DNA of 64,000 nt from Desulfurella acetivorans A63 (GTDB lineage Bacteria > Campylobacterota_A > Desulfurellia > Desulfurellales > Desulfurellaceae): NCBI GenBank assembly GCA_000517565.1, contig CP007051.1:1602001-1666000 (forward strand), written 5' to 3'. The position numbers were made by a program, and so were the translations under genes. A model generated the notes under the pieces. The model did not search any database. It saw only the letters and a list, made by a program, of their open reading frames with translations, and was not told the DNA's origin. Of the stretch, positions 2,275-13,555 are shown piece by piece (the stretch's first letter is position 1; each line of letters begins with the position of its first letter).

Positions 2275-2310
2275 CTACTCAATCAAATCTTTACAAATTT
2301 TTTTCATATT

Positions 2311-2341
2311 CTTGAAGATTTATTTACACTTTAAATTATAC
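2311..2341 (+). promoter_or_regulatory. Pho-box-like element and promoter of the alkaline phosphatase gene
   Basis: CTTGAAGATTTATTTACA (2311-2328) closely matches the CTTGAAGATTATTTAACA motif upstream of pstS, with one inserted T and an AA/CA change. A weak -10-like TTATAC follows at 2336-2341. There is no good -35, which is usual for activator-dependent Pho promoters. Binding by a PhoB/PhoP-type regulator is inferred from the phosphate-related genes that share the motif. Confidence 0.45.
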
Positions 2342-2371: not shown

Positions 2372-3970
2372 ATGGCTGAATTGACTCGCAGAAAAGCAAT
2401 TGAAATATTTGGGGCAACGCTTGCTACACTTTTAATTAACCCAAAAGTTTATTCAAGTCAGATTGATCAGATAGGACAGCCAATTACATTTGAAAAAACT
2501 GACACACCAGGTATAATATTTATAGTTGGCGATGGAATGCCCATTTCTACACTTACAGCCCTGCAGAGCCTAAGAAATAGCATTGACAAAACAACAACTT
2601 TTTATAAAAAGTTTCAAAGCAATGACGCTACAATCGCATATATGGGCACAGAATCTCTAAGCAGTATTGTAACAGACTCAGCACCTGCAAGTGCTGCATG
2701 GGCAACTGGCACAAAAACAGTAAATCATTTTTTAAGTGTATTGCCAAATGATAAAATTCTTAAAACAATAGCGGAACTTGCAAAAGAAAATGGCTATGAT
2801 GTTGGTTTTGTAACAACAACACGCGTTACACACGCAACGCCTGCTGCATGGTATTCTCATAATAAAGACAGAGATGATGAAGCAAATATTGCCCTTGAAG
2901 CTTTAAGGTTAAAACCTGCCGTGCTTATGGGTGGTGGGTTAAAGTATTTTAGTAAAGAAGCAAATCCTAAACTAAAAAAAGATACATTGTCAGATTTTAA
3001 AAAAGAAGGTTATGCTGTATACACAGATAAAAAGCAGCTAAAACAAATCGATTACAACAAGCCAATACTTGGTTTATTTGCAAAATCTCATATTGACTAT
3101 TACATTGATAGGTTAAATGATAAAAATCTTGAAAGTCAACCTTCTCTTGCTTTAATGAGTGCAATTGCCCTAAAAAAACTGCAAATGGCAAAAAAAGGCT
3201 TTGTACTGCAAATTGAAGCTGGCAGAATTGACCATGCAAATCATGCAAATGATTGCATGGGCGCGTTAATGGAAACAGCAGAGCTTGACCAAGTTTTAGA
3301 TGTGGTTGATGAGTATTTAAAAACTAACCCAAAAACGCTTGTTATTGTTACAAGCGACCATGGCACTGGAGGGTTTAATGTATTCGGTACTGGCGCAGAT
3401 TATAATGACTCAACAGAAGCCTTTTTAAAATATAAACAAGTAAAAGCAAGCATACCCTATATTACAAAAAAAATTGAAAATAAAGGCTCAAAAGAAGTCC
3501 AGGACATTGTAGAATACTACACTGGCTTTAAAATTGAACCCTCCGAAGCTCAATTAATAATTGACTCACGAAGCCCAGATTTTACAGGAATTACTGGAAA
3601 TTATCTGTATAGAGCCTATGATTCATGCGCGCTTGGTGCTGTGCTTGCAAAATGCGCATACCCATTATCAAAAGATGGAGATCAAACTGGTAAAGCAAAT
3701 TTGCGCAGGGGTAATGTGTATTTTGTTTCAACAACACACACAGGTGAAGACCAAGTAATTTTATCTTACGGATTCCGCTCAAGGGAGCTAATTGCTTCAA
3801 AAAGGATTGAAAACACTGACTTATTTAACGCCATGGCATCTTTTTTAAATATAAAACCCTACAAAAATCCCACTATGACAAAAAAAGAAGCAAAAGCTAT
3901 TATGCAAGCCTATTACAAAGACTACACATATGAAAAATTAGCTAAAAGCTTTCAATTGCATGTAACTTAA
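2372..3970 (+). CDS. phoA: Alkaline phosphatase (PhoA superfamily)
   Basis: Hydrolyses phosphomonoesters outside the cytoplasm to free phosphate. The 532-residue protein begins with a Tat-like leader: TRR at residues 5-7, a hydrophobic stretch to about residue 22, then a likely cleavage near residue 28. Family motifs are the metal-binding GDG at 53-55, the catalytic serine of TDS (Ser103), the metal-site histidines in RIDHANH and SDHGTGG, and the C-terminal STTHTGED. The start follows AAAGGAGG with good spacing. It stands alone behind its own promoter, which carries a motif shared with pstS. The C-terminal part is longer than in the 450-residue E. coli enzyme, as in many bacterial homologues. 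The fold is clear; substrate preference is not. Confidence 0.88.
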   Translation: MAELTRRKAIEIFGATLATLLINPKVYSSQIDQIGQPITFEKTDTPGIIFIVGDGMPISTLTALQSLRNSIDKTTTFYKKFQSNDATIAYMGTESLSSIVTDSAPASAAWATGTKTVNHFLSVLPNDKILKTIAELAKENGYDVGFVTTTRVTHATPAAWYSHNKDRDDEANIALEALRLKPAVLMGGGLKYFSKEANPKLKKDTLSDFKKEGYAVYTDKKQLKQIDYNKPILGLFAKSHIDYYIDRLNDKNLESQPSLALMSAIALKKLQMAKKGFVLQIEAGRIDHANHANDCMGALMETAELDQVLDVVDEYLKTNPKTLVIVTSDHGTGGFNVFGTGADYNDSTEAFLKYKQVKASIPYITKKIENKGSKEVQDIVEYYTGFKIEPSEAQLIIDSRSPDFTGITGNYLYRAYDSCALGAVLAKCAYPLSKDGDQTGKANLRRGNVYFVSTTHTGEDQVILSYGFRSRELIASKRIENTDLFNAMASFLNIKPYKNPTMTKKEAKAIMQAYYKDYTYEKLAKSFQLHVT

Positions 3971-4032: not shown

Positions 4033-5859
4033 ATGAAGGAGACAATAAATAAAATGCTTGATAGTCTAACACATGCATACCAGCCAATAGTAAATATTCA
4101 TACAGGTAAATCCATAGGTTTTGAAGCACTATTGAGAAACTTTTTAGAAAGTGGTTTTGAAAATATTGATGCGGTATTTAACTATGCATACGCAAACGAT
4201 AGCTTGTTTACGCTGGATATTAATTTAAGAAAAAAAGCTATACAAAAAATCAAAAACAGCGATATTTTTCAAAATGATACTTTGCTTTTTTATAATCTTG
4301 ACAATAGAACATTAACTTCAAAAGATTATGAATTTGGAAAAACAATAGAATTCTTGGACGAGCTTAATATATCACCATCAAATATTTGTTTTGAGGTTTC
4401 TGAGAAACATTATCTTGAATGTTCTGAATATTTAATCAATCTTTTAAATAATTATAAAAAACAGGGCTTTAGCATATCGATTGACGATTTTGGCGTAAAG
4501 TTTTCTGGTTTAGAGTATGTTTATAACTTTGAACCAGATTATGTAAAAATTGACAGATTTTTTATAAGCGATATAAATAAAAATCATAAAAAAAGATTAT
4601 TTGTAGAGCATATTATAAGCTTGTGCTCAAAACTTGGCATAAAAACCATAGCAGAGGGCATAGAAACACTTGAAGAAGTAAAAGAATGTAAAGAAATGGG
4701 TTTTAATTTTGCCCAAGGCTATTTTATAGAAAAACCGCAGATTGATCTATCTTCATTAAAATCTGTTTATGAACATATAAATGAGATAAAAAGCACAAGA
4801 TCGCAAACAGACACAGATCTAATTTTAGAAAATTTAAAATCAATAGAACCCATAAACATTAATGAAAGCATAATAAATTGTTTATACAGATTTAAAGACG
4901 CTTCCGTAAATTTACTGCCTGTAGTTGACAATAAAATGCGACCCATTGGTGTTATAACAGAAAAAGATCTTAAAAATTACGCTTACTCACCTTATGGAAA
5001 AGATTTGTTAACAAATAAAACATACAATAAACCCCTATCTGCGGTTATTACAAAAGCTCCAATCGTATGCGCTACAAGCAAAATAGAAGATATAATTGAA
5101 AGTTTTGTACAAACAGGATCTGTTAATACAAAAGAAATACCGCCAGTTTTAGTAGTACAAAATGAAAAATACATAGGTTGTCTTGATGCTGCAACTATAA
5201 TAAATATTGTCCATAAGTATAATTTAGTACGCGTTTCAAACCAAAATCCGCTTACAAAACTACCTGGTAATAATCCTATAAAAGATTATATACAAGAAGT
5301 TATAAACAAATCCAATCAGGCAGCTTTTATTTATTTTGATATAGACAAATTTAAAGTTTACAATGATACGTTTGGTTTCAGACAGGGAGATAGAATTATT
5401 TTATTCTTATCAGATATTTTACAAAAAACCTTTTCTCAAAAACATTATTTTGTAGGTCACATTGGAGGCGATGATTTTTTTGTAGGTTGTGATTTATCAA
5501 AAATTAGTTTTGAAGAGGTTTTTGAAAAATGCATAAAAGCACAAGATGATTTCAACTACGGAAGTAAGGTATTCTACCCAAAAGAAATTATTGATCAAGG
5601 CTATATCAAAGCAAAAGACAGGGATGGAATTGTTAAAAACTTTGGTTTTGTAAGTGTAAGCTTTGCTATTTTACACATTGCAAAACAAAGTGGCAACCCA
5701 GATGAAGAAAAAATTTCCAAACTGCTTGCTCTTTTAAAAAAACAGGCCAAATCTCTAAGCGCATTTAGTATAGCAACATTGCTTGAGCCAAATATTAATT
5801 TATTTGATTTTTACGAATTTAAAAAATCGCATGATTTTAGTATTAAACAAGCTAAGTGA
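4033..5859 (+). CDS. c-di-GMP signalling protein: EAL, CBS pair, GGDEF
   Basis: 608 residues in three parts. The N-terminal EAL phosphodiesterase domain (about 10-250) has EAL at 31-33, the Asn of DIN (N64), FEVSE, IDDFG, YVKID, AEGIE and AQGYF, so the metal and substrate ligands look complete and it is probably active in cleaving c-di-GMP. A pair of CBS domains (about 255-395) may sense a nucleotide. The C-terminal GGDEF domain has a normal FDIDKFK metal motif, but its signature reads GGDDF at about 478-482, so cyclase activity is doubtful. There is no signal peptide or membrane segment. An AAGGAG ribosome site precedes the ATG and is partly paired in a short hairpin (4006-4024). The TPR gene downstream is translationally coupled. 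Confidence 0.9.
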   Translation: MKETINKMLDSLTHAYQPIVNIHTGKSIGFEALLRNFLESGFENIDAVFNYAYANDSLFTLDINLRKKAIQKIKNSDIFQNDTLLFYNLDNRTLTSKDYEFGKTIEFLDELNISPSNICFEVSEKHYLECSEYLINLLNNYKKQGFSISIDDFGVKFSGLEYVYNFEPDYVKIDRFFISDINKNHKKRLFVEHIISLCSKLGIKTIAEGIETLEEVKECKEMGFNFAQGYFIEKPQIDLSSLKSVYEHINEIKSTRSQTDTDLILENLKSIEPININESIINCLYRFKDASVNLLPVVDNKMRPIGVITEKDLKNYAYSPYGKDLLTNKTYNKPLSAVITKAPIVCATSKIEDIIESFVQTGSVNTKEIPPVLVVQNEKYIGCLDAATIINIVHKYNLVRVSNQNPLTKLPGNNPIKDYIQEVINKSNQAAFIYFDIDKFKVYNDTFGFRQGDRIILFLSDILQKTFSQKHYFVGHIGGDDFFVGCDLSKISFEEVFEKCIKAQDDFNYGSKVFYPKEIIDQGYIKAKDRDGIVKNFGFVSVSFAILHIAKQSGNPDEEKISKLLALLKKQAKSLSAFSIATLLEPNINLFDFYEFKKSHDFSIKQAK

Positions 5860-6372: not shown

Positions 6373-7404
6373 TTAAAAGCCGTTGTTACTTAAATATTTA
6401 AGTATTAAATTTTTTGTAGATTTAGGCAGAGGTATATAGCCTAAGCTTTCAGCTGCTTTGTCGCCATGTTCAAAAGCCCATTTAAAAAATTCTACAGCCT
6501 GTTTTTGTTCTGCTTTTTTTGTATTTGGGACAAGCACAAATGTACCAGAAACTATTGGCCATGTTTTTGCTCCGCCTTGGTTTATCAATACTTCACAAAA
6601 ACCATTTTTTTCCTGCCAGTTAGCTTTTGCTGCAGCCTCTTTAAATGCCGCTACACTTGGCTCTACCCATTTGCCTTCTTTATTTTGCAATACTACGCTT
6701 GTTAGGCGATTTTGTAACCAGAATGCATATTCAACATATCCAATTGCACCAGAAATTTGTTTTACATAGTTTGCTACACCCATATTACCTTTGCCACCTA
6801 CACCTACTGGCCAGTTTACAGATAAACCGTAATGAATTTTTTCATCCCACTCTTTGCTTACCTGGCTTAGCCAATAAGTAAAATTCCAGTTCGTTCCAGA
6901 ACCATCTGCCCTGTGTACAATGGTTATTGGCAAATTTGGCAATTTTAAGTGGGGGTTATCCTTTTTAATTAGAGGATCATCCCAATTTTTAATCTCACCC
7001 ATAAAAATTTTGGCTATGGTATTATTTGAAAGTCTAAGTTGATTATCCTTGATACCTGGTATGTTTACAACAACCAAAATTCCGCCTACAAGTGATGGGA
7101 ATTGTAATAGATTCTTTTCTTTTAATTCATCTGCTTTTAGACACATATCGCTTCCACCAAAAGCAACAACTCCCTGCGTTACCTGTTTAATGCCAGCACC
7201 TGATCCTACCCCTTGATAATTCACTTTATTACCCGTTGCCCTTTCAAACTCATAAGCCCACTTAGTATAAACTGGGTAGGGAAATGTCGCGCCTGCTCCA
7301 TTAATTGACCAGCCTGCTTGCGATACCTTTGCATCAAATAAAATACAACTAACCAAAAATACTGCAAGCATTAGCAGTTTTAACCACCTTTGTGGTTTTA
7401 ACAT
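6373..7404 (-). CDS. pstS: Phosphate ABC transporter substrate-binding protein
   Basis: Periplasmic phosphate receptor of the Pst high-affinity importer. It has 343 residues, with a signal peptide (hydrophobic core about 8-22) ending VSQA at residue 30. Recognition motifs are GAGATFPYP at the mature N-terminus, the VGSGAGI loop, and RADGSGTN, which supplies serine/threonine ligands to phosphate. The ATG at 7404 is chosen over the GTG two codons upstream because AGGAGG lies five bases before it. No pstCAB or phoU genes are present in the window, so the receptor gene is detached from its transporter. A Pho-like direct-repeat array lies upstream. Confidence 0.92.
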   Translation of the reverse strand: MLKPQRWLKLLMLAVFLVSCILFDAKVSQAGWSINGAGATFPYPVYTKWAYEFERATGNKVNYQGVGSGAGIKQVTQGVVAFGGSDMCLKADELKEKNLLQFPSLVGGILVVVNIPGIKDNQLRLSNNTIAKIFMGEIKNWDDPLIKKDNPHLKLPNLPITIVHRADGSGTNWNFTYWLSQVSKEWDEKIHYGLSVNWPVGVGGKGNMGVANYVKQISGAIGYVEYAFWLQNRLTSVVLQNKEGKWVEPSVAAFKEAAAKANWQEKNGFCEVLINQGGAKTWPIVSGTFVLVPNTKKAEQKQAVEFFKWAFEHGDKAAESLGYIPLPKSTKNLILKYLSNNGF

Positions 7405-7448
7405 AAACACCTCCTACAAAATAATGACTTTTTTGTCATCTTTTTTTT

Positions 7449-7491
7449 ATTATGCAATTTTTTTGTTAAATAATCTTCAAGATAATGTTAA
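7449..7491 (-). promoter_or_regulatory. Pho-box-like direct repeats and -10 of pstS
   Basis: Reading the minus strand from 7491 downward there are three consecutive 11-base units beginning TTAACA, TTGAAG and TTAACA. This is the 11-bp periodicity expected of tandem PhoB/PhoP binding sites. A -10-like CATAAT (complement of 7449-7454) follows, without a recognisable -35. The stretch TTGTTAAATAATCTTC at 7463-7478 (plus-strand reading) is repeated exactly at 10645-10660 upstream of the glycosidase operon. Regulator identity is inferred. Confidence 0.55.
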
Positions 7492-7505
7492 ATATTTGTA
7501 ATGTG

Positions 7506-8630
7506 TTATTTTGATTCGATTAGGAGTGTGTTTTTGCCCATTAGATATTTTTTACCACGCCAATAAACTTTTGTATTAAAAAATGGCACAAACCATATAA
7601 AACCTATTATTATGTCTTTTATTGGAGAAAAAAAATAATATATAGATTTTATATCAGAGCTAACTAAGTATCCTGTATAATAATCAAGCATGGCTTTAAA
7701 GATAGCTGAACCAACAAATAAATATAAAAAATCTTTTGAAAAACCAGAAATAATAAATCCAACTAAGGCTAAAAAGACAGGGTTTGATAATAGTTCACTC
7801 AAATAATAAAACCTGCCAATTTTATATCTCATCTTTGCCCAGCGCGTGTGTCTGTTTAAAAATTTTTTTGTATCCCAAAACTCATTTACATTATCAACAA
7901 AATAATTTGATATTGCTACTTTTTTATTCTTATCAGTTGCAAGTTTTCCAATCATAAAATCTTCTGCTAAATAATCTTTTAAATGCCAGAATCCTCCAGA
8001 TTCTTCTAAATCTTTTTTTCTAAAAAGAATGGATTTGCCAATTACGCATGGTATATTTGTTTTTGTATTCAAAAAAGCCATACCACAAACTACAAATGTG
8101 TTTAATTGAAGATTTTCAAGCAATGATCCAAAAGTAAGTGCTCCTTTTCCTCTAACCAAATTTGTAACAACACTAACTTCATTATTTTTTAAGTATTTTG
8201 CCGTTTGTTGAATATAATTTTTATCTACAATCACGTTGCTGTCACTTATGATTACAAAATCATACTTTGAGTTCATATAAGCTTTAAACATATTGTTTAT
8301 TTTTGGGTTTAATCCTACGCTGGTATCATCTATTACAATTGAAATGTCACAATCTTTGTACTTATCTTTGATTTTTTTTGCAATTTTATATGCAGGATCA
8401 GTGCACGATGATAAACAAAAAATTAACTCATATTTTGGGTAATCCAGGCTACAAAAGCTTTCAAGATTACTAAACAAATTATCATCAATTCCCTTTAGTG
8501 GTTTAATTATAGAAACACCTTCGGTAAATGAAAATGATAGCTTTTGCTTAACTAAAGAGGCAAGTGCAAGAATTTCTATAAAATATGCAATAAAACCAAT
8601 AGCAACCAAAACCAAAACCACATAAAGCAT
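7506..8630 (-). CDS. Membrane glycosyltransferase, GT21-like (ceramide glucosyltransferase/HpnI type)
   Basis: A 374-residue integral membrane transferase with one N-terminal transmembrane helix (about 2-25) and several at the C-terminus (about 280-350). Catalytic motifs are in family order: KPLKGID at 43-49, the DSN metal motif at 130-132, the catalytic EDF at 223-225, and the RxxRW motif RHTRW at 260-264. GT21 enzymes transfer sugars to membrane lipids such as ceramide, diacylglycerol or hopanoids. The start is ATG 8630, seven bases after AGGAGG; the GTG two codons earlier sits too close. It is last in an operon with a PHP phosphoesterase and a family 1 glycosidase behind a Pho-like promoter. 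The acceptor lipid cannot be read from sequence. Confidence 0.8.
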   Translation of the reverse strand: MLYVVLVLVAIGFIAYFIEILALASLVKQKLSFSFTEGVSIIKPLKGIDDNLFSNLESFCSLDYPKYELIFCLSSCTDPAYKIAKKIKDKYKDCDISIVIDDTSVGLNPKINNMFKAYMNSKYDFVIISDSNVIVDKNYIQQTAKYLKNNEVSVVTNLVRGKGALTFGSLLENLQLNTFVVCGMAFLNTKTNIPCVIGKSILFRKKDLEESGGFWHLKDYLAEDFMIGKLATDKNKKVAISNYFVDNVNEFWDTKKFLNRHTRWAKMRYKIGRFYYLSELLSNPVFLALVGFIISGFSKDFLYLFVGSAIFKAMLDYYTGYLVSSDIKSIYYFFSPIKDIIIGFIWFVPFFNTKVYWRGKKYLMGKNTLLIESK

Positions 8631-8642
8631 TTTCACACCTCC

Positions 8643-9353
8643 TTACTTTCTAAAAAATTTTATAGCAACTTTTGTATTATCTTTGATGCATTTTTTCACA
8701 CACTCAATTTCTTTTTTGCAATAAAGCAGCGTGCGCCATGAGTGTATATGTGAAGGTTTATGAAAATCACTATTTGCAACAAAAGGGTACGATTCAAGAC
8801 TTACCACATTGAACAAGTCTTTGTTGCAACCAATTTCCCATGCATCAATATACTTTGAAAAATATTTTCTATTATTCCAAAGATAAAGCGTTTCTTTGTC
8901 TAAACCCAAAACATGATAGGGATGAGCCGCTATTATTAAAGCATTTTGTTTTTTTGCTTCTAAAAATAGTTTTTTATAGCTTAACTCTGGCGGTATATAT
9001 TTTTTAATATCAATAAGCAAAATATGCGCTGATTTAGCGGCACTTATGTGGTTTTTTGTTATTTCAACACCAGGTATAACAAGCATATCATATTTATCCA
9101 GAGCCCTTTTTGATTCATACGCTATGTTTTCTAAATAATCTTCAAAGTTTTCTTCGCTTAAGCTTGCATTGATTGTATGTGCAGCCATGCCCATAAGATT
9201 TGTTTTATCTACCAGGTGATCTGTAATTGCAATGATATCATGACCTGTCTGGCCATAAATGTCTACAACTTTGCGTAAATTAAGAGATCCGTCTGAATAA
9301 TTTGTATGAATATGAAAATCGCACAAAAGACTTTCTTCTTTACAATTATCCAT
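8643..9353 (-). CDS. PHP-domain phosphoesterase
   Basis: A compact PHP metallo-phosphoesterase of 236 residues with the four family motifs: DFHIHTNYSDG (HxH at 14-16), ITDH at 43-46, HPYH, and NSDFHKP near the C-terminus. Such proteins hydrolyse phosphoesters with bound metal ions; the substrate is unknown. I start it at ATG 9353, with a GGAGA ribosome site eight bases before it and an 8-base overlap with the end of the upstream glycosidase gene. Longer in-frame starts would extend far into that gene and add residues with no PHP similarity. The gap to the downstream glycosyltransferase start is only 12 bases. Confidence 0.82.
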   Translation of the reverse strand: MDNCKEESLLCDFHIHTNYSDGSLNLRKVVDIYGQTGHDIIAITDHLVDKTNLMGMAAHTINASLSEENFEDYLENIAYESKRALDKYDMLVIPGVEITKNHISAAKSAHILLIDIKKYIPPELSYKKLFLEAKKQNALIIAAHPYHVLGLDKETLYLWNNRKYFSKYIDAWEIGCNKDLFNVVSLESYPFVANSDFHKPSHIHSWRTLLYCKKEIECVKKCIKDNTKVAIKFFRK

Positions 9354-10626
9354 CAAACATTCTCCAGTTTTTGACAATGTACGCATAAAAGGATGCAGAT
9401 AGGGTTGGTTTTCTTTTAAGCGTTTTTTCATCAACTCTAAAAAGTCCAAATTTGGCATTTAAACCTACAAACCATTCATAATTATCAATTAAAGACCAGT
9501 AAAAATAACCTTTTATGTTGATCCCATCAGCAATTGCTTCTTTTATTTTTTCAAGATGTGCTCTTATGAACTGAATTTTTTGAAAATCATTATTTGTTGC
9601 AATGCCATTTTCTGTTATTATAAGCGGTACTTTCAGTTTTGAAGCATATTTTAAAACCTTTAATATACCTTTTGGATAAATTTCCCAGCCCATATCAGTT
9701 ATTCCTATACCTTCTTTGTTCTGGTATATAATATCAACAAACTTATTTTTAAAATTAAATGGATTAAATTTTAGAAAAATTCGTGTGTAATAGTTTATTC
9801 CAAAAAAGTCTAGCTTATCTTTTACGGGTAAATCTATTTCAAAAGATTTTGAAAAAGGTAAATTAATAGATAAATGTCCACTTAAAAAAGCGTTAATTAT
9901 TGAGAAATTATAAAAATGTTTGGCAACTTTGGTTAGCAACATATCAAATTTATTTTTTCTATATGGTTTAAAGACTGCCATATTGTGGGCTATACCCACA
10001 TAAGGTTGATCTATGTAAGTGTGTATAATATCGTAAACTTTTGCATGTGATAAAAGTATATTTTTTAGAGCTTTTTGAGCTAATTCTTTGTTTTTAATAT
10101 TTGGTGGCATACAACCGTCCAAATAACCACCAAGCAATAAAATATACGGTTCATTAAATGTAATCCAGTACTTTACATTTTTTATCGTTTTTACCAATTT
10201 CTCAACATAAAAACAAAATTTATCCACGCTATTATCATTATGCCATGGATAGTTTTTAATAAACCATACAGGATGCGTAAAATGATGTATTGTAACAAAA
10301 GGTTCTATATTGTTTGATAATAATTCATCAATAATTTCCTGATAATGGGCAATACTTGCTACATTAAATATATCCTGACTTGGCTGAATCCTGCTCCACT
10401 CAATTGAAAATCTGTATGCATTTACACCAAGCTTCTTTATTAAATATAAATCTTGCTCATACATAGAATAATGATTTACAGCTTCTGGTTTTTCTTCAAA
10501 AAAGCTATCAAACAGGTGCCAATCTGCATAAGGGCTACCTTCTAATTGGAATGCACTTGTTGCAACGCCCCAAAAAAATGTTTTAGGATTTTCTAAAATA
10601 TAAATGCCACACACTCCTTTTGTCAT
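9346..10626 (-). CDS. Glycoside hydrolase family 1 (beta-glucosidase-like)
   Basis: A 426-residue GH1 enzyme with the N-terminal FFWGVATSAFQLEG, the acid/base glutamate in TFNEP (E159), the nucleophile in ITENG (E339), and YFYWSLIDNYEW near the C-terminus. It probably cleaves beta-glucosides or beta-galactosides. There is no signal peptide, so it is cytoplasmic. ATG 10626 has no Shine-Dalgarno, but TATGAT lies only eight bases upstream, so the transcript could be leaderless. An AAAGGAG sits inside codons 3-5 and could serve only a rare ATT start at codon 8. First gene of the operon with the PHP protein and glycosyltransferase. A role on glycolipid head groups is possible but inferred. Confidence 0.88.
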   Translation of the reverse strand: MTKGVCGIYILENPKTFFWGVATSAFQLEGSPYADWHLFDSFFEEKPEAVNHYSMYEQDLYLIKKLGVNAYRFSIEWSRIQPSQDIFNVASIAHYQEIIDELLSNNIEPFVTIHHFTHPVWFIKNYPWHNDNSVDKFCFYVEKLVKTIKNVKYWITFNEPYILLLGGYLDGCMPPNIKNKELAQKALKNILLSHAKVYDIIHTYIDQPYVGIAHNMAVFKPYRKNKFDMLLTKVAKHFYNFSIINAFLSGHLSINLPFSKSFEIDLPVKDKLDFFGINYYTRIFLKFNPFNFKNKFVDIIYQNKEGIGITDMGWEIYPKGILKVLKYASKLKVPLIITENGIATNNDFQKIQFIRAHLEKIKEAIADGINIKGYFYWSLIDNYEWFVGLNAKFGLFRVDEKTLKRKPTLSASFYAYIVKNWRMFDG

Positions 10627-10634
10627 GAATGGAT

Positions 10635-10670
10635 ATCATAGTAATTGTTAAATAATCTTCTGATTTTGGT
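10635..10670 (-). promoter_or_regulatory. Promoter with Pho-like motif for the GH1-PHP-GT operon
   Basis: On the minus strand the order is TTACC, GAAGATTATTTAACAA (complement of 10645-10660, identical over 16 bases to the pstS element) and then the -10 TATGAT (complement of 10635-10640). There is no -35 consensus, which fits an activator-dependent promoter. The expected transcript start falls within a base or two of the ATG at 10626. Confidence 0.5.
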
Positions 10671-10749
10671 AAAAAAAATGTAAAAGAAAGATCCTTTGTT
10701 TCATTCAGTATGGCCGACTCACTTGCGCTTTTTGAATAACATACCCTAT

Positions 10750-10887
10750 TGTCATTCTAAGAAGCGAAAGTGTTGCGGGGAATCTCCCTTGCTTGCTGCT
10801 GCCGTCATTGTAAGCACACGAAAGTATGCGAAGAATCCTATTACTTACTGCCCGCCTGTCATTCTGAAGCGTTAGCGAAGAATCTCT
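10750..10887. repeat. Three imperfect 53/54-bp tandem repeat units
   Basis: Units begin at 10750, 10803 and 10857. Each opens with (T/C)GTCATT(C/G)T(A/G)AG and ends with GAATCTC or a variant. The 17-base segments between them (TTGCTTGCTGCTGC and TTACTTACTGCCCGCC cores) also resemble each other. The third unit abuts the glnE stop codon. Base composition is visibly richer in G+C than the surroundings. The core resembles the short interspersed CATTCTGAGCGAAGCGAAGAATCT-type repeats I recall from many unrelated genomes; I cannot confirm other copies here. A frame of about 67 codons across it is not a credible gene. Confidence 0.8.
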
Positions 10888-13555
10888 ACTCTTGAAAATA
10901 CATATCAAATATTGTGCTAACTTTATCTTGTAGTTTTTTAATTTTAAATTCTAAATTATCTTGTTTTAGTAAAAACTTTAAAACTACCAATTTATCTTTT
11001 ATGTCATTTGGTATGAGTCTTGTTAAATTAAGTATTTTTGTAAAATATTCGTAGGTAGCTTTTAGAAATCTAACTTCTTTTATATAGGAAATTTTATCAA
11101 TCATCTCTTCAATGCTTTTTCCAAATTCAAAACAACTATTTTTAATGCATAAGTATTGCAAAATGAATTCTATGTCTACTATACCACCTCTTTCATTTTT
11201 TATATCAAAACCTTTATGTTTTTCTATTAATTCTTTCATTTCTCTTATACTTTTTTTATCAATAAAGCGAGCAAATTCATTAATTGAATCTGTTAAATCA
11301 CAATCGATATCACTATAAATTATTCTGGCTTTTTGAATGGCAAGCTTTTCCCAATCTTTAGCATATTTTGCCAGGTAACTTTTAAAATAATCAACCTCAC
11401 TAACAATCAAACCTTTTTCTCCAAACGGCCTCAATCTTAAATCAACACTATAGATTTTATTAAGCTCTCTTACGAGATTTGAAACCTCATAAATTTTTTT
11501 ATCATCAACGGTTTTTGCAAGAAAAACCAAATCTAAATCACTATTTACAAACAACTCTTCAATACCAAGTTTGCCATATGCCAAAACAATCAAATCTTTT
11601 ATTTGCAACTTTGTTATTGTGTGTTGTATATACTTTTGTGCAAAAACCGATAGAATTTTTTTATTTTTTTTATCTAAATTGCCGCTTAAAAGTTTTAGAA
11701 TCAAATTAAACTCTAATCTTTCTTTTTCTTGTTTTGAAAGCTGAATTATTTCTAAAGGCTGGTCTATATAAAAAAACTCGTCAATTAAAAACGGATATTG
11801 ATTTAATTTTTGATACAACCCAATAGAAAATGCCAAAAGTGCTGTTTGAAAAATAAAATCACTACCAAAAAAAGTATCGTAATAGTTTGGCAATATACTG
11901 TTAAAACCTGAAATTACATTTAAAAAAAGTTTACTGTTTAGGCTTTTTGGCATATTTTTTAATTGAAAATAAGCTTTTTCTATAGAATTAGTCAAAAATG
12001 TTGGATTGGTTTTAGCAAACCTTGATTTCCTTGCAATATCGCTCAATTGAATAGCTATCTGTTTATAATCGCTAAATTCCTCTTCAAAGAAATCTTCCAA
12101 AATTTCCATCGGTGAAAAAATAGGTATATTGTGTGCATAAAAAATTGATTTATAAATTTCATGTACAGAATCTGTTATTTGATTGTATATTCTTAAAAAT
12201 TCGTCCGCCTTCAAATTAAATTTTTTTGCAAAAATTTCTAGCTCCTCTTTATTTAATGGTAAATCTGCTGTTTGCTTCTCATCTTTTAGCTGTATTTTGT
12301 GTTCAACTAATCTTAAAAACAAATAGCAGGCTTTGAGTTTTTTAGCTTGTTTAAGGTATTTTTTAGTGTATAAAATATCCAAAACCTCAAGCGTTGAGCT
12401 AGTTTGCAAATCAGTATCCTTACCAGCATATATAAGCTGAAAATATTGGGCTATAAACTCAATTTCCCTAATCCCACCAAGTCCTAATTTTACATTTATT
12501 TTTAAAGGATTTATAAGATTATTTTTATAATTGGATAATTTTTCATGTTTGATTTTGTAGCGCATTGAGCGCACTTCTTCAATATAGTTTATATCTATAT
12601 TTTTAGTATATACGAAAGGTTTTATAACTGAAAAAAACTTATTAGCTGTGTTTTTATCTCCAGCTGAAAATCTAGCTTTAGTTAAGGCAAACTTTTCCCA
12701 AACCTGTCCAAAACTAAAATAATAATTTTCATATTCATCAATACTTAATGATAAACTAGAGTTATTCCCAAAAGGGCGCAGTCTCGTATCTACCCTAAAA
12801 ACAAAACTACCAAATTGCACATCAGAAATAATTGATACAATGTTTTGGGCAATTTTATTGTATTCTTGGGCGTCATCAAAATTATCATGAACAAACATTA
12901 TGTCTATATCACTAGAAAAATTAAGTTCTTTCGCACCCAACTTTCCCATGCTTATTATACAAAACTTTTTTTCTTTAAGCTTTTTTTGGCAAAAAGCAAT
13001 ATCTAAGGCTATTTCTAAACAGGCATCAGCTAGTTCAGATAGCTCTAAATACACTTCTTGGGATTTGCATACTTTTGCAATTTCTTTTGAAGCAATACGC
13101 AAATATTCCTTTTTTCTGTATTCTCTTAATATGTATTTTTTTTCATCCAAGGTTTTCTTTGACCTTATAAGCTTATATATCTCTTGTATAAATATCTGCT
13201 TTGTTTTATTGGTTACCAAATCTTCTAAAAGCCAGTAAAAGTATTCACTGTGGTTAATTAATAGTAAAGAAAGACTATTGCTTTGGGCGAATATGTTAAA
13301 AAGCAAATTTCTATAAAATTTGGAGACTTTTATTATCTCAAATAAAGTAGATTTAGCAGTCGTATTTTCCAGAAACCTCTGGAAAAAATCAAACGCCTGA
13401 TCTGGATCCGCACAAACACTTAAAGCATCTTTTATTTCTTCTATACAATTATAAAAATTCTCCAAAACTCCTAACTTTGAATTTATATATAGAAGTGATT
13501 TGTACGCTTTGCGTTTGTTTTTAAAAAGAGCTAAAAAATTTTCAAGACTAATCAC
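10886..13555 (-). CDS. glnE: Glutamine synthetase adenylyltransferase/deadenylase
   Basis: Adds and removes AMP on glutamine synthetase according to nitrogen status. The 889-residue protein has the expected two nucleotidyltransferase halves. The first has MGKLGAKELNFSSDIDI near residue 215 followed by DTRLRPFG; the second has YGKLGIEELFVNSDLDL near 667 followed by DLRLRPFGEKG. Both carry intact DxD metal motifs, so both activities should be present. It is slightly shorter than the 946-residue E. coli protein. Translation probably starts at GTG 13555, overlapping the secF stop as GTGA. No glnA or glnB lies nearby. The stop codon touches a tandem repeat block. Confidence 0.93.
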   Translation of the reverse strand: MISLENFLALFKNKRKAYKSLLYINSKLGVLENFYNCIEEIKDALSVCADPDQAFDFFQRFLENTTAKSTLFEIIKVSKFYRNLLFNIFAQSNSLSLLLINHSEYFYWLLEDLVTNKTKQIFIQEIYKLIRSKKTLDEKKYILREYRKKEYLRIASKEIAKVCKSQEVYLELSELADACLEIALDIAFCQKKLKEKKFCIISMGKLGAKELNFSSDIDIMFVHDNFDDAQEYNKIAQNIVSIISDVQFGSFVFRVDTRLRPFGNNSSLSLSIDEYENYYFSFGQVWEKFALTKARFSAGDKNTANKFFSVIKPFVYTKNIDINYIEEVRSMRYKIKHEKLSNYKNNLINPLKINVKLGLGGIREIEFIAQYFQLIYAGKDTDLQTSSTLEVLDILYTKKYLKQAKKLKACYLFLRLVEHKIQLKDEKQTADLPLNKEELEIFAKKFNLKADEFLRIYNQITDSVHEIYKSIFYAHNIPIFSPMEILEDFFEEEFSDYKQIAIQLSDIARKSRFAKTNPTFLTNSIEKAYFQLKNMPKSLNSKLFLNVISGFNSILPNYYDTFFGSDFIFQTALLAFSIGLYQKLNQYPFLIDEFFYIDQPLEIIQLSKQEKERLEFNLILKLLSGNLDKKNKKILSVFAQKYIQHTITKLQIKDLIVLAYGKLGIEELFVNSDLDLVFLAKTVDDKKIYEVSNLVRELNKIYSVDLRLRPFGEKGLIVSEVDYFKSYLAKYAKDWEKLAIQKARIIYSDIDCDLTDSINEFARFIDKKSIREMKELIEKHKGFDIKNERGGIVDIEFILQYLCIKNSCFEFGKSIEEMIDKISYIKEVRFLKATYEYFTKILNLTRLIPNDIKDKLVVLKFLLKQDNLEFKIKKLQDKVSTIFDMYFQE

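Follow-up and report, generated by a model that had tools for sequence, protein, structure and literature searches.

The closest described systems to the locus analyzed here are the plcP-agt and plcP-pgt operons of rhizobia, Roseobacter and SAR11, in which plcP, encoding a metallophosphoesterase, adjoins the gene of a lipid glycosyltransferase, either agt or pgt, under the control of Pho boxes (PMC4796936, PMC3972451). Pgt, whose gene has its own Pho box, is a GT21 family enzyme acting on diacylglycerol (PMC8231724, PMC3972451) or on ceramide, and both GT21 and GT28 are among the families known to contain glycoglycerolipid synthases (PMC8231724). In Desulfovibrio alaskensis G20, low phosphate leads to the replacement of phospholipids by glycosyl-diacylglycerols and ornithine lipids (PMC5193443).

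The operon described here encodes a family 1 glycosidase (GH1), a PHP-family phosphoesterase and a GT21 glycosyltransferase, and has pstS as its next downstream gene. Like the plcP operons, it places a phosphoesterase beside a lipid glycosyltransferase, the latter of the same family as Pgt, and is preceded by a Pho-box-like element. It differs from them in that its phosphoesterase has the PHP fold and is unrelated to PlcP, no calcineurin-like metallophosphoesterase gene (PlcP; PF00149/PF12850) being present in the trio of the window, in that GH1 is added, and in the lineages that carry it. It also differs from the system of D. alaskensis G20, which uses Agt (glycosyltransferase group I), the text of PMC5193443 naming neither a PHP nor a GH1 protein. 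The relevant features of the window, that is, the whole 64-kb stretch of DNA analyzed, are the following:

2290..2328, plus strand: box upstream of phoA, TTTACA-n5-TTTTCA-n5-TTGAAG-n5-TTTACA
2372..3970, plus strand: phoA-type alkaline phosphatase gene (PF00245, 238 bits)
4033..5859, plus strand: gene for an EAL-CBS-GGDEF protein, a candidate accessory member whose relatives neighbor the trio in numerous other genomes
6373..7410, minus strand: pstS, phosphate-binding protein gene (TIGR00975, 350 bits, over the NCBIfam cutoff)
7464..7502, minus strand: same box upstream of pstS, ATTACA-n5-TTAACA-n5-TTGAAG-n5-TTAACA
7506..8636, minus strand: GT21 membrane glycosyltransferase gene, of the ceramide glucosyltransferase/HpnI/Pgt fold family (PF13506, 138 bits)
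8643..9353, minus strand: PHP-family phosphoesterase gene of the TM0559/2anu group (PF02811, 30.4 bits versus a cutoff of 26.4)
9346..10626, minus strand: GH1 beta-glycosidase gene (PF00232, 283 bits)
10646..10684, minus strand: Pho-box-like promoter element of the trio, TTTACA-n5-TTTACC-n5-CAGAAG-n5-TTAACA

The three minus-strand genes are tightly packed, as had been proposed in the initial annotation, whose family assignments also hold. The PHP gene starts at the ATG at 9353, overlapping the GH1 stop by 8 nt (ATGGATAA), and is separated from the GT gene by 6 nt, a further 95 nt separating the GT gene from pstS. A longer PHP reading frame starting at 9458, inside GH1, was rejected; the extra 5' stretch contains a stop codon in the congener G002. 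The exact start of GH1 is uncertain; its message may be leaderless, or translation may begin at a rare start codon. Its ATG at 10626 lies only 8 nt past a -10-like TATGAT and is not kept in G002 (window 10590-10635), and an SD-like AAAGGAG near the start is followed by ATT in the window and by ATA in G002. The region separating glnE from the trio promoter (window 10700-10890) contains short, degenerate repeats (GATTCTTCGC...CAGAATGAC type) that resemble an intergenic repeat element.

A 15-bp motif, GAAGATTATTTAACA, is present in exactly two copies in the window, at 7464-7478 and 10646-10660, confirming the earlier observation that the trio shares a promoter motif with pstS. With up to 2 mismatches allowed, 4 matches are found in the window against 0.85 expected. 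It forms the 3' portion of a 39-bp box made up of four half-sites at 11-bp intervals; phoA has this box as well, and the three promoters (phoA, pstS and trio) conform to the consensus WTTACA-n5-TTWWCM-n5-YWGAAG-n5-TTWACA. An 11-bp repeat register is a typical feature of PhoB/PhoP-type boxes, and a Pho box of this kind upstream of the trio is a feature shared with PlcP-type operons. A PhoB/PhoP-type regulator of the OmpR family would be expected to bind the box and to co-induce phoA, pstS and the trio, presumably when phosphate is low.

When the pattern was searched in the whole genome (G000) with up to 3 mismatches, 15 matches were recovered, compared with 2 for the reversed pattern; the zero-mismatch matches, three in number, are the sites from which the pattern was derived. 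Of the remaining matches, two immediately precede further pstS genes, one of which is followed by pst permease genes, and these two constitute an independent check, since the pattern was built without those genes. At least three pstS genes occur in G000, each with a version of the 11-bp-repeat box (L177, L189; G000 979318 and 69895).

Within the genus, the trio proteins of congener G002 are 96-98% identical and encoded in the same order, and the trio box is kept with 1 mismatch, though its flanks diverge. In congener G001, all that is left is a 28-codon remnant of the C-terminal end of GT (71% identical), immediately before pstS (L115 5257-5340), a deletion scar from loss of the entire trio. 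Neither the PHP gene nor a close GT relative was found in any of the 16 order-mates searched. Relatives of the PHP domain occur in the genus of the window, in another sampled phylum, in Verrucomicrobiota and in Aquificaceae. In that other phylum (the phylum of G284), profile searches recovered PHP in 27 of 148 genomes. All 27 carriers encode a GT21 gene after PHP on the same strand, with a gap of about 0-305 nt, and in most of them GH1 precedes PHP by no more than about 700 nt in the same orientation, a divergent block being found in one family. GH1 relatives of the trio type are rare outside the PHP carriers: both genes occur together in 23 genomes, PHP alone in 4, GH1 alone in 3 and neither in 118 (Fisher 8e-20, a value uncorrected for relatedness).

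The neighborhoods of these PHP-GT pairs point to phosphate metabolism. Conserved neighbors in the 27 genomes encode PstS, PstC/A, PstB, PhoA, PhoB/PhoR-like proteins, PsiE, OlsF-like acyltransferases, EAL/CBS/GGDEF proteins and a calcineurin-like phosphoesterase. Genes of the pst, phoA or psiE type occur in 16 of the 27 trio loci but are missing from all 53 loci that encode other PHP proteins, a contrast that is somewhat favored by some of the queries having been taken from trio loci themselves. Several trio loci also have olsF-like ornithine-lipid synthase genes nearby, reminiscent of the ornithine lipids formed by D. alaskensis G20. As separate observations, a cluster of EAL/CBS/GGDEF homologues lies near the trio in 14 other loci, suggesting a link of c-di-GMP-type proteins to phosphate or lipid genes, and a calcineurin-like phosphoesterase (PF12850) lies beside the trio in 10 loci (L142-L151, neighbor cluster 7), where it could be a second phosphate-recovering enzyme.

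The PHP protein is cytoplasmic and is 45-47% identical over the whole domain to TM0559 of Thermotoga maritima (PDB 2anu), a member of the same PHP group without an assigned function. Its AlphaFold model (pLDDT 88.8) has 2anu as best match (TM-score 0.88), followed at a distance by PHP phosphoesterases including RNase AM and an AMP-binding PHP protein. Residues of the metal-ligand type are complete (H14, H16, D21, H46, E97, H144, D196 and H198) and invariant in 29 sequences. Against the NCBIfam models of known PHP enzymes (HisJ, PolX, RNase AM/RNM, nucleoside bisphosphate phosphatase and CehA/McbA) the protein scores under the cutoff in every case, the highest score being that for CehA/McbA (46.6 versus a cutoff of 80). 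A scan of viral_contigs with PHP gave no match.

A second type of association was found in a scan of the genome collection, where contigs of the Verrucomicrobiota type encode the same PHP domain fused to a GT28 MGDG-synthase-like transferase. The fusion reading frames span about 660-700 residues, with the GT28/MGDG-synthase part N-terminal and PHP C-terminal; 20 such loci were counted by ORF reading, both domains being confirmed by Pfam in six. A GH1 gene lies downstream of the fusion at L038, one of these loci. L037 and L048 lie within pst clusters. At L113, PHP is located directly before pstC-pstA-pstB-phoU, sharing its last base with pstC, and pstS belongs to the same operon, with no glycosyltransferase adjoining PHP. 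In this operon, genes for a STAS-domain protein and a SpoIIE-type phosphatase precede PHP (L113 6573-8710). In Aquificaceae (L050), the genes near PHP include a Porin_O_P gene and one for a response regulator. PHP is the constant element of all these arrangements and phosphate genes are a frequent companion, while two unrelated lipid glycosyltransferase families, GT21 and GT28, alternate beside it.

Taken together, the context supports well a role of the trio in a lipid pathway, and we assign a probability of roughly 0.6 to its being a phosphate-starvation membrane-remodelling operon, by which phospholipids would be swapped for sugar lipids. A function of this kind had been put forward in the initial annotation, and it is largely borne out by the phosphate-gene context in another phylum, the GT28 fusion and the shared box, with the chemistry predicted from these. 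Since the partners of PHP are two transferase folds that share diacylglycerol as substrate, the simplest role for PHP would be the supply of diacylglycerol from phospholipid. Acting in the cytoplasm as a phospholipase C or a phosphatidate phosphatase, PHP would, somewhat more probably than otherwise, cleave a phospholipid into diacylglycerol and recoverable phosphate, filling the place that the unrelated PlcP occupies in plcP-agt/pgt operons. Points that tell against this scheme are the PAP2-family proteins of the genome, an alternative route to diacylglycerol, and loci with a missing component, namely L113, where PHP adjoins no glycosyltransferase, and the 4 genomes of the other phylum in which GH1 was not found. 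The earlier suggestion that the phosphoesterase frees head-group phosphate is retained as to phosphate release, while its main product is more likely to be the acceptor diacylglycerol.

Two other activities of PHP were weighed. It may hydrolyze soluble phospholipid head-group phosphates or glycerophosphodiesters, with diacylglycerol coming from other enzymes. This activity would suit a phosphoesterase fold that is frequently found in a phosphate context; moreover, the genome encodes three PAP2-family proteins available for diacylglycerol supply, so diacylglycerol need not come from PHP. We consider it unlikely, as fusion to a diacylglycerol-using transferase points to a hand-over of the lipid acceptor. 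Less likely still, PHP could hydrolyze the UDP or UMP left over from glycosyl transfer, which would pull the reaction forward and recover phosphate, and could thus pair with any nucleotide-sugar transferase. Such an activity would account for the pairing with both GT21 and GT28, and the distant structural neighbors of known function (RNase AM, the AMP-binding PHP protein) are indeed nucleotide or nucleic-acid phosphoesterases. The loci, however, are all tied to lipid transferases or phosphate uptake rather than to glycosyltransferases in general, and L113 has no transferase nearby.

In the favored lipid-remodelling pathway, the GT21 enzyme would very probably attach a hexose such as glucose, supplied by a nucleotide sugar, to diacylglycerol, a reaction predicted from its family and context. 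The protein matches PF13506 well above threshold (cutoff 21.7) as well as human ceramide glucosyltransferase (E 4e-43), and has hydrophobic segments at its N- and C-terminus. The GT21 motifs DSN, AED[FY] and RH[TS]RW, comprising the Asp motifs and the (Q/R)xxRW signature, are present in all trio relatives examined and in the window GT, where they read DSN, AED and RHTRW. The top NCBIfam match is HpnI (TIGR03472, 223 bits), which would make the operon one for glucosaminyl bacteriohopanetetrol. This hopanoid role was rejected as very unlikely: the score is below the curated cutoff of 310, the trio GTs (all 215-266 bits against TIGR03472) form a single clade (100/100) separate from the HpnI-scoring group, and no match to the squalene-hopene cyclase model TIGR01507 was obtained in the genome, a search of limited sensitivity given the weak controls of that model.

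The GH1 protein contains both catalytic Glu motifs (TFNEP and ITENG), and its best full-length single-domain PDB match is BGPh of Pyrococcus horikoshii (1vff), a membrane-associated enzyme with a preference for long alkyl glucosides (PMC4687101). BGPh and the archaeal GH1 enzymes of the steryl-glucosidase type are glycosidases of the lipid interface (PMC4687101), although, unlike the GH1 of the window, they have no known link to phosphate genes. A further parallel is SFR2/GGGT of plants, a GH1-family enzyme that acts on glycosyl-diacylglycerol in the membrane and transglycosylates galactolipids (PMC11525325); SFR2 is a eukaryotic transferase, and its likeness to the window GH1 is one of description rather than of compared sequences. 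The cytoplasmic GH1 of the trio may, in a similar manner, transglycosylate the glycolipid into a diglycosyl lipid, or it might turn the glycolipid over, which we hold to be slightly less probable. The trimming or recycling of sugar proposed at first is therefore kept in the form of turnover, next to transglycosylation as another option. As a glycosyltransferase and a hydrolyzing GH1 made together would amount to a futile cycle, the GH1 step is the weak one, and the co-production of both enzymes is a mild argument for transglycosylation. Catabolism of imported beta-glucosides, suggested by GH1 being mostly a beta-glucosidase family, was rejected as very unlikely, as this GH1 is the only one in the whole genome and no signal peptide-like segment was seen in it, no sugar transporter, PTS or kinase occurs among the conserved neighbors, and the trios of the 27 genomes in the other phylum, far from being tied to unrelated sugar catabolism, are tied to phosphate genes and a lipid transferase.

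The substrates of functionally characterized PHP enzymes are nucleotides, histidinol phosphate or nucleic acids, and to our knowledge none acts on lipids, which speaks against the proposed activity. The trio PHP looks like a lipid-cleaving enzyme of a previously undescribed kind. In the literature searched, mostly open-access papers, we found no description of a PHP enzyme in lipid remodelling or linked to MGDG-type synthases, nor of a GH1-PHP-GT21 trio or a PHP-GT28 fusion. As a tentative and rather doubtful extension, PHPs of the TM0559 type could represent a new class of phospholipase C (or phosphatidate phosphatase), unrelated to PlcP, that hands diacylglycerol to GT21 or to the fused GT28, with GH1 as a bacterial SFR2-like transglycosylase forming diglycosyl lipids without further nucleotide sugar.

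These results provide a testable function for TM0559 (2anu), a solved but uncharacterized structure, and for its relatives. If the proposed role is correct, bacteria would have adopted a phosphoesterase fold unrelated to that of PlcP to turn over phospholipids when stressed for phosphate, and lipid remodelling would extend beyond the organisms found via PlcP searches. Also, the presence of GH1 suggests that a glycosidase takes part in glycolipid metabolism; other known cases of this are mainly from plants (SFR2).
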